A stretch of DNA of 64,000 nt from the NCBI GenBank assembly GCA_037178675.1, contig JAYMGJ010000751.1, positions 17,188-81,187 on the forward strand, written 5' to 3'. Under the pieces are notes generated by a model. That model ran no database searches, had not been told where the DNA came from, and worked only from the letters and a program-made list of their open reading frames with translations. Source of the DNA: Scleroderma bovista (taxonomy: Eukaryota > Basidiomycota > Agaricomycetes > Boletales > Sclerodermataceae). The translations under genes were made by a program, and so were the position numbers. Positions 1,410-23,179 of this stretch are shown here, in pieces; within the stretch, counting starts at the first letter, position 1; every line of letters starts with the position of its first letter.

Positions 1410-2468
1410 TCATGACCATGGTTCAACTTCACCTGTTCGCTCTCTGCCGACCCTTCAAAGACTCGTCAGCACTGGGCCCCAGTGTTCAGGCTGTTACTGA
1501 AGCAAGGTTTACCCGTTGGGTAGAGACAATATGCTCCAAAGGCGCCATGGCGGGCATCCTCGATCTCATCGTTGATGACGCTTTCTGGCTCAATATACTT
1601 CTACTCATTGGGACTTCCGCATGTATGAAGGACGGGACACTACGAAACAGTTCCTCACAGATCAATTGCCCAAGTTTAATCTGATCTCATTTAAGCCGAG
1701 CTCGTGATGCTTGTTAGGCTACGTGAGGACCTCTTGTGGATCAACTTCGACACCACCATGGGACATGCAACAGGGACAGAGGTTTTCAGCCTTGCGATTT
1801 CGGTAGGCGTGTCATGGAAGGCCCATGGTGTGTTCACAAACCTCGATGATCCTAAGGGCTTCCCGGCGAAGACCGGTTTCCTGCAACCCCCCGAGCCAAA
1901 TCAGGCTGAAATCCGCAAGAATTTCTCGATGAAGAGCCCGGCGCGCTCATTATCGGGGGGTGCCAGAGTGGCCTTGATGTCGGTGTACGTCTAAAGATGC
2001 TCGGGATCAACTCATTTATTATTGAATGGCATGATACTATATGTGAGTAATCAACCATGGGTTGACATCGCTATCATTTCTGAAGCTTCCTGGGGGGGGG
2101 GGGACCACATGCCTTACTTTAGCGTTATGATCATTGCATACTTTGCACATTCCCTCTGCCCTGGCCTGTTCATACACCGGCATTAAAGTTGGTCAATTGG
2201 CTGGGGCATTTCGCTCAAATCCTTGGACTGAACGCCTGGACTTCCGCTACTGCTGTTTCCATTGAACCGGATATCAAGCGCAAAAGCTTGTCTATGCGAG
2301 TTTTCCGTGGCGATGGTAAGGAGCGCATCTTCGAGGTTAGTCATGTCGTATTTGCCACTGGGTTTGGCAATGGAAAACACAAGATGCTAGATATATGTAT
2401 CCAGTCAAGTATGTAACATGTCCAAACACTGTTGATAGCACAGGAGGAGTTCAGGGGCCACGTTTTGC
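1410..2468 (+). pseudogene. Decayed flavin monooxygenase copy, 5' part
   Basis: This is a degenerate copy of the intact monooxygenase gene at 20805-23179. It begins at the same ATGAC(C/T)(A/G)TGGTTCAA start. It keeps recognisable stretches such as GILDLIVDDAFW, the GFPAKTGFLQ region, the GGGQSG-like FAD site (frame-shifted, near 1955), NWLGHFAQILGLNAWTSATAVS and FEVSHVVFATGFGNGKH. Frames change several times and the first conserved domain ends in a stop near 1684. Homology breaks at 2468 and resumes at 8290, because a transposon is inserted between. The upstream TATA-containing segment (about 1350-1410) also matches those of the other two copies. Confidence 0.85.
2460..2468. repeat. Left target-site duplication (ACGTTTTGC)
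   Basis: The 9-mer ACGTTTTGC here is repeated as ATGTTTTGC at 8290-8298, with one C/T difference. The uninterrupted paralogue has AAGTTTTAC once, at 21987-21995. This is the pattern left by a transposon duplicating 8-9 bp of target. Confidence 0.75.
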
Positions 2469-2515
2469 TAGTCTCCCTAAGCCAGACTCTCTTCGTAGAT
2501 GAAGATAGTCGTTCC
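2468..2515. repeat. 48-bp segment shared, inverted, with 19893-19940
   Basis: Starting at the last base of the target duplication, 48 bases match the reverse complement of 19893-19940 with a single difference. A similar stretch is not seen at the right end of the element. It sits outside the part of the left terminus that pairs with the right terminus, so it looks like inserted or captured filler. Confidence 0.7.
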
Positions 2516-2550
2516 TCTAGAAGGAGAGTCTGCTTTTAATGGCAGGGTGG

Positions 2551-2572
2551 TTACAGTAGTTCAGCAATTCGG
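2551..2572 (+). repeat. Left subterminal inverted repeat of the 5.8-kb element
   Basis: The sequence TTACAGTAGTTCAGCAATTC followed by GG is the reverse complement of 8243-8264 except for one base. The similarity extends outward in patches (AGTCTG and TAATGGC on both sides). Confidence 0.8.
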
Positions 2573-2699
2573 ACGTTTTTGAGTCTAAGCGAGACATGCC
2601 GGACATTTGGGTGTATGCCGAAACACCGCGGCGACAGTGAACTGGTGGCGACATAGGTAGAGCTCTTGGGGTTTCATACCAGAAAACTACAAACATTCC

Positions 2700-5600
2700 A
2701 TGTATTACCCACATACTCCCTATGTCCAATCACAACCAAGTGCTGGTCAACATGGGCCATACCCTCTGAATCACAATGACCACTACTATGGTATGCTTGC
2801 CGCATCCTATCTTGATATCATTTCACATCCGAGCCTCTTGTATTGGACGTGCAGGAGCTAGTACGAATGGTCAGCTTTCCCCTCAAGGAGCTGCGCTACC
2901 AATGACCCCACAGCAAACGAGACAATCACTCACCAGTCCATCTCCTAAGCGCAAACGAGCCAATGACGAGAACTTGGATTTCTCTCTGCCGGTCTTGAAG
3001 AAATCAAAATACACTGCGAGGCGAACTCCTGAGGATAAGCTGGAGGTCATTTTCAAGGCCCTTCAAGATGTCAATTGGACACTCGGAGACTTCCTTTATC
3101 ACCTATTCCGACAGCAAGATGAGAAGGGTCAACCTGTGCGCCGATCTCAAAAGCATGCATCGTATGTCCATAAACTTCTCAGTGGCTGCTGTGGGACCGC
3201 AGGAAAAGGAATTGGGTTCATTTTGGATGCATGGTTTCAATCTGGAGAGGAGGATGGTGCCGAACGGTCCATGCACTTCACAATGTCAGTTCCATATCGA
3301 AATATTCGTTCCGCAAGACCAGCGCTCACCTCATTTGCTGCCCAAGTGGTCAAAAAAGAGCTCGTGCAAGAAGCGGAAGCTGCAGTACAGCCACGAAGTG
3401 GACTGCATGCAATGCAACAGGTCTCTTGGGCAGACGTTCATTCTACTACTGTGTCATCTGTAGCCGATGTAATCCAGAAGTTGCAACCACTCACCTGGGA
3501 GCTCGTCACAGAGATATGTGCCCGTCTGCCATGAAAACGGGATGGGGTGGTTGTGGAGCGGAAAAGACGTCCTGTTAACGGGGTAGGTCCTTTCGATTGA
3601 GACTTAGATGAATTGTTCGATATAAAACTAACCTCCAACTTTGCAGGTAACAGCCAGCATAATTTCCCAGATGGACTACTCGCGAAATAGCCATGCAAAT
3701 AAACTCGCGATAATCAAAGGCCTCTTTGATTTTGCACATGGTGTCCCCTTCGATGTTTTTGCTTGCAATTCACGTGTTGCATATACGGTGTCATATGGAG
3801 CAGTCCGGCATTGTCTTGAGGAGCTCTCCCAGCAAGAAGCAAGGCTCGTTGTTGAGCGAGCCAGGGACCACACAAGGGCAGGTGTTGTGGTGATGGACAA
3901 CGTACAAAATTACCTCATGCAGCGTGACATACGAATTGGTCGCACGCACACAATGAATGTTGGCCTTGCTGCCACCTACGTTGAACTGGAAGGTATCCAT
4001 CCGAATGCTTTGAATTTCGCAGTCAAAATGGCACATGTGGCAAATTCTCACCGGTCCAACTTGACCGTCTCTCAGCTACTAGGCTACCTTGACCAGAAAC
4101 ACATTGATACCGTCATGACTTTGCATTGGCTCCTTACCCTTATCAATTACGTGCCGTGTCTCTCGTCTCTGCGAAAGGATGTTCTTGATGCCTTCCGTAC
4201 CAGAGCAGCTAAACTCCGTTTACCCATCAAGTCCTCTTTCGTTCATCCCTTGGCAACAAGCAGCAAAAACGAAACTGTTACAACGGACCTAAAGGATGCT
4301 ATATTTGATTTTATGGAACAGATAGGGCAGACCCCCGAGGATTATCAACGCCGTCTCATCCTCACATGTGGTGATGGTCTGACATTCGAGAAGATCATTC
4401 AATTGAAGAAATATCTCCAGTTTCATGGTGACGATCTCCAGAGCCTATGGCTTCTGGAGCCTGTTCTTGCCATCTGGCACACATTGTGGACAGATATCAG
4501 CCAGATTTACGAGTCACACTGGGGTAACTCTACTCTAACCTCCGATCCATCCACCCTCGCTCACAGTGCTGCCAAAATTGGTCGCATGGCGCCACCAAAC
4601 CTCAAGAAGGTGGACTACTATCCGTACTCTGAGTTAGCTTATCTTATTCTGGAGGTCCGTATGCTGGACTATTGGCGGTAAGTCTCTGACACATACAGCG
4701 TGATATTTCATCTCACATTAACAAACTCAGTTTATACTTCAAGGCCGATGATTTGATTCAACACTTTTCTAATTTTGAGGCTGCGGGGACTCTCCCCTCA
4801 TTCACAGTTCTGGAGTTAGCAGCTCGAGAACTCCATCGAGCTTACTCAAGCACACGTGCCTTGCATCATGCCATGCGAGACGTTGAGAAACCATCAGTGT
4901 GGTCTCATACAGTCCCACGAGGCACAGCATGGCAAAGTCCACTTGCGTGCGTTGCAAATAACATCAACGCGTCAAGTGCAGAAGCTGCATCCCATTGCAG
5001 TGATACAACATTCAAAGGTGACCTTATACTGGTGCGTTCAATTGCATTCATGCGGGATGCATTGGTATCAAGAGAGGCTGCATACGCAGCGGCTGAGGGA
5101 GACGTTGGACGCCTTTATGAGATGATCAAGGTATGTCATATTCTATGAACACGGGATACAAAACTGATTGTTCCGGCTCAACATTAGCTCATGCTGTTCA
5201 CATTTGCTGGATCCTCACACTCAAAATACGTCACATACCTGCTTGAAACAATCACCACACTAGAGTTGGAGGCGAGTCCTGAGCTACGAGAAGCTACCCT
5301 TCGTAGCATGCTCGTCAACATGAATGGCCACTCAGGCTCATTTTGTGCCCTAGATTTCATGCAGGAATATTTCAACCGCCTGTTAGAGGCCATTGTCCAG
5401 CGGAAAGGGGTTGACTATGGGGCCCCTTACATACACTCCGTGATTGCGCGCAACCTTCACCGACTAGGACAAATCAAGAAGGACCTACGAGATGGATTTG
5501 GTCTCCAGCCCCGCTCTGGCCACCACAAGGCCCCACACACTCGCCCAGAAGTGCACATCCTCCTTGATGTGTATCGACGCCATGAACTTCATTCGCGCCG

Positions 5601-5949
5601 AGTCGGTCGACGTCTAAATGCAGATGACTTTGGTGAGCACGTGGATGGCTTTGAGAGAGGCATGGAGCACTTGCGAAAGACAAGATTAGCGACATGGGTG
5701 AAAGAGACGACTGCAAGCCGAGGTATCACTAATTTATCTGACTCGGGCACCTCACTACTTCTCCAGGATGAAATGGAGGGCAAGCAGGCCAATGGAGAGG
5801 GACGACCAGTGGTACGACCAGTATTGGGTAGGATGTGCGTGATTGATGGGCAGCTGCTGATTGAAGAAAACATCGATGACTTTGATCTTGATGACGATGG
5901 GCCAGACAACAAAGCCAACGATGGTCCAACCACAATGCCAGTAGCTTAG
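2700..5949 (+). pseudogene. DUF6589 protein, candidate transposase, one internal TGA
   Basis: I read five exons: 2700-2790, 2855-3582, 3647-4677, 4731-5130 and 5188-5949 (1004 codons in one frame). The N-terminus is Tyr/Pro/Gln-rich, then a basic patch (SPKRKR, LKKSK) that could be a nuclear signal. The conserved part starts near ARRTPEDKL. It contains VVVMDNVQNY (Asp near residue 357), RDIRIGRTHTMNVGLAATY, TCGDGLTFEKI (Asp near 516) and EGDVGRLYEMIK, and matches the Agaricomycete DUF6589 family as I remember it. The acidic motifs would suit an RNase-H-like DDE nuclease, but that is inference. A single in-frame TGA at 3532-3534 lies inside the conserved ARLP-x-KRDGVVVERKRRP segment; the frame continues cleanly after it, so it reads as a nonsense mutation, probably from CGA. 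The tail is acidic. The gene converges on the helicase. Confidence 0.8.
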
Positions 5950-6121
5950 TAGTATCAGGTGTGTTATTCATCGCTCGTTGCAAGTCCACAGTCAGGACTA
6001 ATTTGTTTACATTCTCTAGGCTACATACTACCACCTGACTTGTAATCTAGTCGTACTGTTTTCGCTCTGCCACAGAGTCCGTCTCAGTCTTGCAGGCCAA
6101 ATATTGAATCTGATTGAAAAC

Positions 6122-8119
6122 TCACTGGTTATTCAAGACCCAACGAATTCCTGAGGCCTCCATCTCTGCTATTGCCACTTGACCTTCTTGTTGGATATTT
6201 TCCTCTCTCCCTTGGTGCGCTGCTCCTTGCTCTTTTGCTTTCATCGCTTTCATATGCTCTACTATGTGCTCCACAGCTGTGAACAAGCCCTCGCAGTGAT
6301 ATGGGTGCAGGCTGGTGTCAGCCGTCATGTGTGCAATATCAGCCACAGTCGTAAGTGAGAAGATGACATCGAGGATAGACTTAATAACGGTGTCGGGCAA
6401 ATAGGCTTTTGGTGACAGACACCCCTCCATCTGGTCATCCGCTGCCTCCCATACTTCAGCCTGCCATTTCATCAATTCCGTAATCCCATACTCCCTCATC
6501 TTCTTTGTCAAGCGGTTCCGACGGTAAGTGTGGGCCTGATTTTTGGATTGCTCTTCCTCAATGACCTTGTTGTCCACCTTTAGGTCTTCTACAGATTCCT
6601 GCTCCTGTGCAGTTTTGGGCACACAGCCACTGCAATCACAGACTTCTTTGCGTCGAGGACGTGGCTGTGCCTGGCATGTTAAGCAGCTGCAAGGCGGTTC
6701 ATCGAGTATATTCCCATATAATTCGTCGAGCTGAGCAACCTTGCAGGATGACAAAATGAGCTTTGCCATGGAAGGTTGCAGGGAATCGAGTTCCAAGGGT
6801 GAACGTGATGCGTGAAGGGCTTGTTTTAAGGGCTCTTTTCCAACTGGCAACTTTGACGCAAGGACTTGTTCTGCCTTGGTGCGTGCATTTTTCGTCACAT
6901 AGAGGAATGCACGAGGGGAAACTGACTTCATGAATCGGAGTCGGCCATAATCTTGAATGAATTCATCAGTATTGGAGGGCTGGCCATAGATGATGACATC
7001 GTCAAATGTTGGAGCATCAATCCCAACAGAGAGGATGCTTGTCGCAATTATAATTTGAGCATCTGGGTCATTTTTTCGCCACAATGTGAGAGTCTCGTCA
7101 TTGTAATGCTTGTGATTGACAGCATTGAACATGCGGACACGTTTAGCACGATGTGGGTCATCCGCCAGCTTTTTCCAGAAATAAATTTGTGCACGAAAGC
7201 CCGCAGCTACAGTGCCCAGGAAGATCAATGTTCGTCTTCGTCCAGCCCTACTGTCCACTATCCAGTCAAGATCTGAAAAGTTGCCACTTTCGAGGCCATT
7301 CTTCATGGTGCGAAAGATTAATTTGATGTCTGGGCGATAATTTGACCTTCGTATGACATGATGACGACCATCCTTGAATCCCAGGAACTTCCGAACACGA
7401 TCTGTTGGCCCACCGACCTGAAGAGTAGCAGTGACGGCAGCAATCGGTATACTGTGCTGGAAACGCGCTCGTACCCAACCAATTTGCTGGAAATCTTTGC
7501 GGAAACTTTGTCCCCATGTATTAAGAAGGTGGGCCTCGTCAACAGCCATCATGCATAGTCGTTCTTTGAAGGATGGTTTATTTACTAGCTTCTCGAAAGC
7601 GGACGACTTTAACTGCTCTGGTGACAAGAGCACCATTGAGACACCATGTTCAATGTCCTCGTACAAGCTCCTTTTTGTTTTTCGTGCGGATGTGAGTGTG
7701 TCCGCATTTATTGCAACAGCAGTAAGCCCTGCGCTATGCATCTTTGCCTCCTGTGTGGGTATTCAAGCCTTCGAATCTCGTCAGACAACTCACGAACGTA
7801 CCATCTCTTCCTCGAGTGCCTTGGTTGGGCACACTATGATCATGGCAGGGTCAGGCGGGAATGTAACTGTCCCAAAGGTGTGGGGGTGCCTAGATATCCA
7901 TTGTATAATGTGCATAAGTCGTATGAACATGTCGGTTTTGCCGCTGCCAGTAGCAATCACTAGTAAAACATCTTCGCCATCCAGCAGGTGTCCAATGGCT
8001 TCTAGCTGGAAATCATGGGTGTCGGAGGGCATAATATCGCGCAGTAGATGACGGCATGCTTCCTGGCCTGCGTCTGATGCGAATAATGGCATTTGTGCCA
8101 TATGCAGGTGGATATCCAT
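6122..8119 (-). CDS. RecQ-like SF2 DNA helicase of the element
   Basis: Two exons, 7802-8119 and 6122-7750, join in frame (EEM then EAKMHSAGLT) to about 648 residues. SF2 motifs appear in order: LLVIATGSGKT (Walker A), MIIVCPTKALEEEM (Ia), VDEAHLLNTWG (DEAH box), AVTATL (III), IIIATSILSVGID (V) and IQDYGRLR (VI). A cysteine cluster follows (CSCLTCQ, then CDCSGC), perhaps zinc-binding, and then a charged C-terminal region. There is no HRDC domain that I can see. Cellular RecQ proteins are usually longer. The position inside a transposon, next to DUF6589, suggests an accessory role in transposition, for example unwinding ends or repairing the donor site. The frame is open throughout, unlike that of its partner. 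Confidence 0.85.
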
Positions 8120-8242
8120 ATCTCCTCACTTGTGTCTAATCAACGCGCACCGCGCCCGCGTTGTTTGCTATAGCTTGTACGAACGGCATGTTCGGCAGGT
8201 GTCAAAGTGTCATCGCTGAGCCCAATGTTGGTTGAATTGCTA

Positions 8243-8264
8243 CCGAATTGCTGAACTACGGTAA
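8243..8264 (-). repeat. Right subterminal inverted repeat of the 5.8-kb element
   Basis: Reverse complement of 2551-2572 with one mismatch. It lies about 25 bp inside the right end of the element, upstream of the helicase start. Confidence 0.8.
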
Positions 8265-8289
8265 AGGCATCGCCATTAGATACAGACTA

Positions 8290-8298
8290 ATGTTTTGC
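8290..8298. repeat. Right target-site duplication (ATGTTTTGC)
   Basis: Second copy of the 9-mer at 2460-2468, differing by C to T. Monooxygenase homology resumes immediately after it (ACTCCACAAAGT, compared with ACTCTACCCAGCACAAGGT in the intact gene). Confidence 0.75.
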
Positions 8299-19892: not shown

Positions 19893-19940
19893 GGAACGAC
19901 CATCTTCATCTACGAAGAGAGTCTGGCTTAGGGAGACTAG
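19893..19940. repeat. 48-bp segment shared, inverted, with 2468-2515
   Basis: Differs from the reverse complement of 2468-2515 at one base. Here it lies between glucosidase II and a monooxygenase relic, in a minus-strand open frame reading VSLSQTLFVDED, which I cannot assign to a family. Confidence 0.7.
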
Positions 19941-20804: not shown

Positions 20805-23179
20805 ATGACCGTGGTTCAAGTGCCCGTTCGCTCTCTGCCGACTCTCCAAAGACTGGGCAGCACCGTGGACCCCAACGTCGACTTTCACGCTGTCGCCGAA
20901 GCATGGTTTACCCGTTTCGCAGATGCCATGACCTCCAAAGACGTGGCGGGCATCCTCGACCTCATTGTCGATGACGCTTTCTGGCGCGATATGCTTACAC
21001 TCACCTGGGACTTCCACACTTATGAAGGAAGGGACACTGTCAAAAAGTTCCTCACAGATCAATTACCCAAGTTCGATCTGTCTGCCTTTAAGCTTCGTGA
21101 AGAGCTCGTGTCGCTTGATAGGCCATATGAGGACCTCGTGTGGATCATGGGCATATTCAATTTTGATACCGAGGTGGGACATGCAACAGGGATTTTCAGA
21201 CTTATTCCCTTGGCAGACGGGTCATGGAAGGCTCACAGTGTGTACACAAACCTCGATGATCTCAAGGGCTTCCCGGAAAAGACCGGTTTGCTGAGGAACC
21301 ACGAGCCGAACCATGGAAAGTGGGCTGAGAGGCGGGAAAGGGAACAAGAATTCCTCGACGAAGAGCCCGGCGCGCTCATTATCGGAGGAGGCCAGAGCGG
21401 CCTTGATGTTGCGGCACGTCTCAAGATGCTCGGGATCAACTCACTTATCATCGAACGGCATGATCGCGTTGGAGATAACTGGAGGACCCGATATGCAGCA
21501 TTGTGCTTGAATAACACGGTATGTGAGTAGTCAACGATGGGTTGACCCCAATGCCATCGCTGAGGCCAGCCGTAGGGTACGACCACATGCCCTACTTGCC
21601 GTATGTTAAACGTCATCATCGTTGTATTTGAGTAAAGAAATCATATCGCTTTGCTGCAGCTTCCCTCCATCGTGGCCTGTCCATACACCGGCCGTGAAGT
21701 TGGCCAATTGGTTGGAGTCATATGCTCAGTCGCTTGAACTAAACGTCTGGACTTCGGCTACTGTTCTTTCCGTCGAACCCAGCACCAAGGGCAAGAGGTG
21801 GTCTGTTCGAGTTGTCCGTGGCGATGGCAGGGAGCGCGTCTTCGAGGTTAATCATGTGGTGTTTGCCACTGGGTTTGGCGATGGAAAACCTAGTATGCCA
21901 AATATACTTGGTCAAGTGTGTAGCATGCAGTGTCGCTTGGTCCAGTTATCGTGCTGACATCCGTTAACAGGTGGAGTTCAAGGGCCAAGTTTTACACTCT
22001 ACCCAGCACAAGGTTGCGATCGATCATCTAGGGAAGAAGGTCGCCGTCGTTGGCTCATGCACATCGGGTATATGGGCACTGCACTTACTCTTTTTATTGG
22101 CTAATACGTTACATACAGCCCATGATATTTGCTCAGACTACGCTGATCATGGAATTGGTAAGTGAAAACTTCACCATGAAAATCGTTTCTAATGCTCCCC
22201 TAGATGTGACGATGGTTCAGAGAGGCCCGACCTATGTCATGTCTTCGAAAGAAGGCCTACCGAGAACAATAGGCGGTGAGCCCACCATTCTGGCACTCGG
22301 GCCCTCCCCCATGATTTATACGACTCTACGAAGGGTTATATAGAGAGGACGGTCCTCCCGTCGATCTTGCCGATCGCATTAGTGCATCATATCCAAACCA
22401 CTTTTTTCGGCTTTTAAACCAGCGTGTGACCAAGGACATAGCTGACGCTGACAAGTACGTTTTGACTTTGCAAAGTCGAGTCGATATTGGCTGAGGATGC
22501 GCAGGGACATCCTAGATGGACTCCGTAAAGTAGGGTTCAAACTCACTTTCGGAGAAGACGGCTCTGGTCTCATGGCACTGATGTGGAAGAAGGTTGGAGG
22601 GTACTACTTTGGTATCTCCCCTGACCTGCTCGTGGTGCCAGTTATTGACCATGGTCAAAAGATGTCGGGGCTTCGCAAAAGATCATCGACGGGAAAATCA
22701 AACTGAAGAGCGATGGTCCCATTGCAAGGTTCACACCCACGGGCCTGCTTTTCGAAGATGGTTCGACACTGGATGCGGATGTAGTTCTTTTTGCCACCGG
22801 GTAGGTGGACACCGGAAGTTTATCGTGGCCTTCACTGAATCCGCGGCCAAAACTGCACAGTTGCGGAAATGTACGCGAGACCTACCTCGGACTCCTCCCC
22901 GAAAACCTCCATGACGCTGTCACGCCTGTCTGGGGGATTAACGAAGAGGGCGAACCACACTCGCTGTGGCGCGAAATTGGCGGAAGTGGACCTGAGGGCA
23001 GAAAACTAGCTGGCCTCTGGTCAATCTTAGGTAATCTGGCATTGTGTCGATTCTACTCAAAACATATTGCGCTGCGTGAGTGTTTTCCTTTACTCGGTGA
23101 AGTCTGAACTACTCGGGCTGATAACGCTGGCTCAGAAATCAAGGCCTACGAGGAAGGAATATTTGGAGAACGTTATTAG
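20805..23179 (+). CDS. Flavin-containing monooxygenase with NTF2-like N-terminus
   Basis: Predicted NADPH/FAD oxygenase of the fungal FMO-like family; the substrate is unknown. Residues 1 to about 180 resemble an NTF2/SnoaL-like fold (AEAWFTRFADAMTSKDVAGILDLIVDDAFWRD). The FAD Rossmann site GALIIGGGQSGLDVAARL follows, then DRVGDNWRTRY, HVVFATGFGDGKP, and the NADPH site VAVVGSCTSAHDI. Late motifs are VLFATG, RETYLGLLPENLHD, PVWGINEEGE and GLWSILGNLALCRFYSKHIAL. I read eleven exons: 20805-21522, 21570-21600, 21660-21915, 21971-22067, 22119-22157, 22204-22275, 22334-22454, 22496-22611, 22662-22800, 22861-23075 and 23136-23179. They total 1848 nt with no internal stop, giving 615 residues. Two decayed copies occur in the window, so the family duplicates and dies locally. 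Confidence 0.88.

Follow-up and report, generated by a model that had tools for sequence, protein, structure and literature searches.

Our analysis confirms that positions 2469 to 8289 of the 64,000-bp stretch of Scleroderma bovista DNA under study (contig JAYMGJ010000751.1; hereafter the window) are a complete 5,821-bp DNA transposon with a 9-bp target duplication. Taken together, our data probably describe a cut-and-paste transposon of the AcademH type that has unequal ends and its own helicase, is cut with a one-sided stagger and leaves one-ended excision scars. The one-ended stubs, up to about 58 letters long, that it appears to leave on exit suggest an unusual mode of DNA cutting. The insertion is delimited by the following features.

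2469..8289, no strand: whole transposon, 5,821 bp, TAGTCT...AGACTA
2460..2468, no strand: left 9-bp target duplication ACGTTTTGC, read from the sequence, 8/9 identical to 8290-8298
8290..8298, no strand: right 9-bp target duplication ATGTTTTGC, read from the sequence
21987..21995, no strand: uninterrupted paralogous target with AAGTTTTAC once, from the alignment across the junction

The original prediction had placed the boundaries at 2468/8290, with TAGTCT and AGACTA termini and flanking 9-mers, all of which is borne out by the sequence. It had also pointed to an uninterrupted paralogue with a single 9-mer at 21987-21995, and the alignment agrees: the FMO-like paralogue is continuous through the junction position, carries the 9-mer once, and is 74% identical to the interrupted gene near the junction over the 507 columns of the aligned piece. 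The element is more than a chance arrangement because an independent copy exists on another contig of the same assembly (C529:20417), 5,821 bp long, 99.0% identical and gap-free, with different flanks and its own perfect 9-bp duplication CTGCTTTGT, a finding that substantiates the earlier claim of a mobile DNA transposon with a real target duplication. The search for further copies with duplications and empty sites that had been proposed at that stage also yielded two full copies of a related family, likewise flanked by 9-bp duplications, and an empty counterpart of the full copy C202 that matches 91/91 bases and contains the 9-mer once. Across the two families, 9-bp duplications flank all four full-length copies (three perfect, one at 8/9).

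The element is filled by two convergently oriented genes.

2700..5949, + strand: DUF6589 gene, candidate transposase (Pfam PF20231; 1,003 codons)
2700-2790, 2855-3582, 3647-4677, 4731-5130 and 5188-5949, + strand: DUF6589 exons (splice sites placed by eye; the open reading frame joins)
6122..8119, − strand: RecQ-like helicase gene (exons 8119-7802 and 7750-6122; 648 aa, no internal stop)

Three of the exons match DUF6589 in Pfam with E-values of 1.5e-56, 4.7e-17 and 9.5e-34; weak Pfam matches to Npa1 and DUF249, below the cut-off, were set aside. The protein is most likely a DDD/E-type transposase, which upholds its earlier designation as a transposase candidate and ties a Pfam family of unassigned function to such a role. 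Acidic residues that could form a DDD/E triad are conserved across 17 DUF6589 loci (24 rows minus 7 near-copies or partial rows), namely D357 (16/17), D516 (17/17) and E810 (17/17), but so are D714, D741 and D806. A single-sequence structure model of exon 3 had a mean pLDDT of 38.4, too low to be of use, and neither an exon 3 search nor a 7-sequence profile search gave a meaningful PDB match. A scan of viral contigs found no DUF6589 relatives, and the literature searched yielded no mention of DUF6589. The window's copy of the gene is probably dead because codon 257 is an in-frame stop. The helicase carries DEAD and Helicase_C domains (Pfam), and its best solved-structure matches are of the RecQ family (RecQ, RECQ5 and BLM in the PDB). 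Its predicted partnership with DUF6589 is reinforced by a convergent helicase match no more than 2.4 kb away at 18 of 27 DUF6589 loci of the same genome, the latter being our own grouping of 54 DUF6589 matches.

No established class with this gene pair had been recognized at first, a claim that gives way to the published accounts of AcademH, described in excerpts of PMC10045372 and PMC10799480 as helicase-encoding DNA transposons with 9 or 10 bp duplications. In two features, its RecQ-like DEAD/Helicase_C protein in a fungus and its 9-bp duplications in 4/4 full-length copies, our element matches the AcademH type as described there. AcademX, which combines 3 or 4 bp duplications with a nuclease according to an excerpt of PMC10045372, does not fit the 9-bp duplications or the lack of any nuclease domain in Pfam. 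Membership in KolobokH or another helicase-bearing group is improbable: KolobokH, for which only fungal hosts are reported, also combines a RecQ helicase and a DDD/E transposase (excerpt of PMC9587614), yet it is AcademH that is credited with 9 or 10 bp duplications. The target sites differ as well. Kolobok elements make TTAA duplications, whereas the 9-mers found here vary in sequence.

The two ends of the transposon are unequal, as the following features indicate.

2527..2572, + strand: left inner copy of the terminal inverted repeat (inverted repeat I1)
8243..8288, − strand: right-hand copy of the terminal inverted repeat (inverted repeat I1), with 1 bp between it and the right tip
2469..2527, + strand: left outer module ("handle"), 59 bp, with the sequence of solo stubs found elsewhere
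2483..2532, + strand: hairpin arms 2483-2503 and 2512-2532 (inverted repeat I4, 81%; fold)
2527/2528, + strand: inferred inner cut A^GTCTGC, where stub inner edges pile up

The 22-bp inverted repeat of the original prediction is present, but its length was understated: it extends over 46 nt at 78% identity (2527-2572 versus 8243-8288), and 58 bp separate it from the left tip, compared with 1 bp from the right tip. Only the left of the two ends compared forms a hairpin fold, whose arms span the inner site 2527/2528. The left end of our element (2469-2540) folds better than 200/200 shuffles (z-score −3.34); the left end in the second family has a z-score of −5.63, versus −0.08 for the right end. 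In every exact match to the inner left end (6/6), the outer tip lies at a distance of 58 or 59 bp, so no insertion lacking the left module was found among these six; with two mismatches allowed, the module is present in 11/13, once without its outer 8 bases, and the remaining two are close in number to the single match in the control. The primary AcademH paper is reportedly that of Kojima (2020, Mob DNA 11:15); in the literature searched, to which that paper is external, we found no description of unequal ends, a left module or solo stubs for AcademH.

Genome-wide, the left-end motif has 135 matches (reversed control, 0), while the right-end motif has 10 sites at ≤2 mismatches and 36 versus 17 in the control at ≤3. 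Beyond full copies and repeats already known, 56 of the 135 left-motif sites were read, and 48 of the 50 distinct left ends read are solo stubs. The survey covered left ends outside the other DUF6589 lineages of the genome and apart from those of C490 and C764. Neither the left outer module nor the solo stubs figured in the original prediction, though one stub of the same family lies in the window.

19893..19939, − strand: solo left-end stub L069, 47 bp (9-bp duplication not found, best 6/9)

The outer edge of the stubs is fixed, as 35 of 40 scored BLAST matches, without conditioning on the edge, begin at base 1-3. Their inner edge is ragged and essentially ends at the inner repeat: among the 48 stubs, 15 stop at the inner site or up to +2 beyond it, 31 fall short by 2 to 35, two (L083 and L101, of which one is a left-left palindrome) reach +5 and +6, and none ends at +7 or further. 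The 9-bp repeat is perfect at 19 of the 50 left ends and 8/9 at six more, compared with 0.15% perfect and 0.59% at 8/9 in a foreign-flank control; 23 of the 48 stubs have no duplication at 8/9. Empty counterparts of stubs L055 and L095 contain the 9-mer once. The junction of L115, a paralogue of stub L087, is too diverged to reveal a single target copy, and at the other places corresponding to stub L107 the sequence exceeds the joined flanks by 18-20 bp. Contiguous flanks were found elsewhere for none of the 14 tested stubs that lack a duplication, and no site among those read holds the full element in one place and a stub in another. To the right of stub L094, about 310 bp have been lost: by our arithmetic, its two flanks lie 309-318 bp apart in C432 and C87, and about 300 bp apart in C536.

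We conclude that the stubs are very probably excision scars. In appearance, a stub that has both a 9-bp duplication and an empty counterpart cannot be told from an insertion, and the stubs may pass for tiny transposons. Bacterial Tn3-type elements offer a precedent in one-ended transposition, with one end fixed and the other variable. It is nevertheless quite unlikely that the stubs are themselves insertions, either of a tiny non-autonomous element or of the left end alone: their inner edge is ragged, they carry no right-end sequence, their maximum length corresponds to the position of the inner repeat, and break repair better accounts for the near-identical duplication-less stubs and for the roughly 310 bp missing beside L094. 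Ordinary MITEs are ruled out by the missing right end and the ragged inner edge. Abortive gap repair, in which the element would exit with a short stagger and synthesis on the sister copy from the left flank would stall at the hairpin and be joined to the right flank, fits the ragged inner edges and the strong fold of the module, which could block synthesis. We consider it unlikely, for in both families the edges cluster within the 3′ arm, where the inner repeat lies, rather than at the hairpin arm that synthesis would meet first. Gap repair could also start from either flank, yet right-end sites are few (10 at ≤2 mismatches), with one right-end-only place, C219.

The structure of the stubs makes a staggered cut of about 58 nt, confined to the left side, reasonably likely. 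At insertion, the transferred strand would end at the outer tip and a 9-bp target duplication would be made, so that each new copy would carry the module. At excision, the cut in the other strand would fall at the inner repeat (A^GTCTGC), some 58 nt from the tip, and the donor would be left with a single-stranded tail consisting of the module. Once this tail has been joined to the right flank, often after trimming, the donor site would consist of a 9-bp repeat, a stub no longer than 58/59 bp and a second 9-bp repeat. The helicase may open the module, or folding of the module may bring the two cuts near each other; by our count, about 19 nt of the 5′ arm would lie between them in the folded form. 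A part for the helicase in opening the module is a tentative proposal, and we hold it an even chance that the full scheme applies, in which a one-end stagger of about 58 nt is bridged by the hairpin, opened by the element's own RecQ-like helicase, and followed by a scar at each departure. If excision severed both strands at the inner repeat, the module would simply stay behind and the excised DNA would be a dead end, which would account for the stubs without a long stagger. Such a double cut is very unlikely, as it predicts module-less copies, none of which was found reinserted (module at 6/6 exact inner ends), and would render most excisions fruitless, yet the module is kept in two families.

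The proposed one-sided cut would account, in a way open to testing, for the presence of a helicase in AcademH-type transposons. As scars, the stubs would provide a site-by-site tally of excisions, something seldom available in natural systems, and each would be a record of fungal break repair; with a true stagger of about 58 nt, these sequence-tagged, one-ended scars would form a countable genome record of past jumps. In KolobokP, parts of the element likewise remain after partial excision, the difference being that whole long terminal direct repeats are lost there, not a 58-nt module (excerpt of PMC9587614). The element's proteins have no Pfam match to the P/THAP9-type transposases of the P element family. 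The Drosophila P element resembles our proposal in its long staggered cut and in the transposon-end sequence that stays at the donor, but its two ends are cut alike, whereas the cut of about 58 nt deduced here would be on one side only. The P element stagger, called unusually long, is 17 nt, and the one deduced here would be more than three times that.

The transposon at 2469-8289 begins with TAGTCT, ends with AGACTA and spans 5,821 bp, with the target duplication reading ACGTTTTGC on one side and ATGTTTTGC on the other. As originally observed, an uninterrupted FMO-like paralogue at 19.95-22.95 kb carries the target a single time (AAGTTTTAC), and the further copies and empty sites that the prediction proposed to look for were found in the source assembly (51.8 Mb in 850 contigs, designated here by C numbers). 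A gap-free copy on C529, 99.0% identical and inserted between different flanks, has CTGCTTTGT on both sides. A related family includes full copies on C10 (5,603 bp, duplication GGAGGACAC) and C202 (5,610 bp, duplication TCTTTTTGA), which share 99.3% identity. When the two flanks of the C202 copy are joined, they match C678 at 99% over 150 bases; all 91 bases read are identical and the 9-mer is present once, so C678 shows an empty counterpart, which may be either an allele or a paralogue. Another related-family copy (C324:10541-12205 and C324:30894-34781) seems to be interrupted by an insertion of about 19 kb.

The DUF6589 gene lies on the forward strand in five exons, three of which match DUF6589, and the helicase gene on the reverse strand encodes 648 amino acids with PDB matches to RecQ, RECQ5, BLM, RECQ1 and WRN. 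One in-frame stop interrupts the DUF6589 gene in both the window and C529 copies, at different codons, and 45 of the 54 differences between these copies are CpG transitions. This pattern is that expected of copies decaying through methylated cytosines. Genome-wide, visual inspection sorted 54 DUF6589 matches into 27 loci; at 18 of these a convergent helicase match lies within 2.4 kb, and helicase matches number 28 in all. After seven near-copies or partial rows were dropped from 24, the acidic residues D357 (16 of 17 loci), D516 and E810 (both 17 of 17) proved conserved, as did D714, D741 and D806; such residues are compatible with a DDD/E transposase while not proving one. The genome also contains three or more other deep lineages of DUF6589, with about 20% identity to that of the element, and at eight of their loci a more distant helicase match, likewise convergent, lies about 2 kb off. 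The suggestion that no established class has this gene pair is not supported, since AcademH transposons are described, in PMC10045372 and also in PMC10799480, as encoding a helicase and generating duplications of 9 or 10 bp. We file the element provisionally as AcademH-type on the basis of its helicase and duplication size, AcademH being known here by description rather than by transposase sequence. No mention of the name DUF6589 was found in the literature searched.

The right end of the element consists of the inverted repeat plus one extra base. At the left end, the repeat arm starts at 2527 and has a further 58 bp on its outer side, and the related family has the same layout, with 58 bp before GTCTGC. 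Folded as single-stranded DNA, this left end outperforms every one of 200 shuffles in each family (z of -3.34 and -5.63); the right end folds no better than its shuffles (z of -0.08). Reading the two sequences side by side shows one stem pair in which both partners differ between the families (C-G to A-T), which hints slightly that the fold matters.

A 22-base outer left motif common to both families occurs 135 times in the genome at up to three mismatches (reversed control, 0), and among 100 places listed 49 are exact and 40 have one mismatch. The right-end motif is found at 10 places at up to two mismatches, and at 36 against 17 for the control at up to three. Ten of the one-mismatch left-motif places belong to a longer repeat that took up a left end. 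A dispersed repeat (L004-L008, L numbers being individual stretches read, and further places on C429, C301, C298, C259, C127 twice, C44, C552, C543 and C140) carries a captured piece of the transposon, its leftmost 107 bp, between identical flanks; five copies read are pairwise 94-99.5% identical over 1.7-3.1 kb. C219:34711-34776 (L011) is the sole place with right-end sequence of the element's family and no left end, and a duplication was looked for there and not found.

Sixty stretches were read, 20 and 40 from two match lists, and 56 contain the motif, representing 50 distinct sites told apart by upstream flank. Alignment to both family ends revealed that only two sites continue into an element, the other 48 being solo left ends, or stubs. 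The nine bases preceding the motif reappear downstream perfectly at 19 of the 50 sites and at eight of nine positions in 6, compared with 0.15% and 0.59%, respectively, when flanks are taken from other sites. The outer edge of a stub is selected for by the motif search, but in a whole-module BLAST 35 of 40 scored matches still begin at base 1-3; the inner edge is unselected because the motif spans the first 22 bases only. Fifteen inner edges lie between 0 and +2 relative to the inner site, A^GTCTGC at 2527/2528, where values of +1 and +2 may reflect a coincidental match to a duplication starting G or GT; 31 fall 2 to 35 bases short, and two lie past it at +5 and +6. In a few stubs (L059, L091, L106) local alignment over-extends the edge.

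Duplications on both sides require that both ends were once joined to the target, so a one-ended stub is what remained after the rest departed. Among stubs with a duplication, places spanning the joint exist for 4 of 23 tested, two of which were read at sequence level: the empty counterparts of L055 and L095 have the 9-mer once, and stub plus one 9-mer are therefore additions. The counterpart of L087 is too diverged to show a single target copy, and those of L107 are 18-20 bp longer. We consider it very probable that the stubs are excision scars. For stubs without a duplication, 14 of 23 were tested by joined flanks (40 of 45 candidates scored) and none had another place spanning the joint; these stubs behave like repaired breaks. 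The flanks of L094 lie 309-318 bp apart on C432 and C87 and about 300 on C536, so its site lost about that much on the right, unless the other places share an insertion.

Cutting of both strands at the inner repeat, with the 58/59-bp outer module simply staying at the donor, would release DNA devoid of the module, and any reinsertion would then start at the inner repeat. However, an outer tip lies 58 or 59 bp away from all six exact inner left ends and from 11 of 13 two-mismatch ones, one of which (C81) is missing the outer 8 bases, the remaining two being near the control count of 1. This makes such a cut improbable. New copies thus bear the module even though it also stays behind at donor sites. 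The simplest account, which we favor with some reservation, is a different cutting position on each strand at the left end. The P element likewise cuts its strands at different places, with a stagger of 17 nt called unusually long in PMC7776569. An untrimmed 58-nt tail, if joined directly, would yield the most frequent stub edge, and trimming would yield shorter stubs. We conjecture either an opening of the module by the helicase or a fold of the module that places the two cuts within about 19 nt of each other.

Searches of the literature on Academ-type and KolobokH transposons, excision, one-ended scars and staggered cuts, a scope outside which the primary AcademH paper falls, returned no description of such stubs, which are new relative to that literature. 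L083 and L089 contain a 78-bp near palindrome, in which a second left outer end, inverted, comes after the left end; it has no 9-bp duplication and may be a left-left product. A tRNA-Val is predicted at L099 87-176, near a stub without a duplication.
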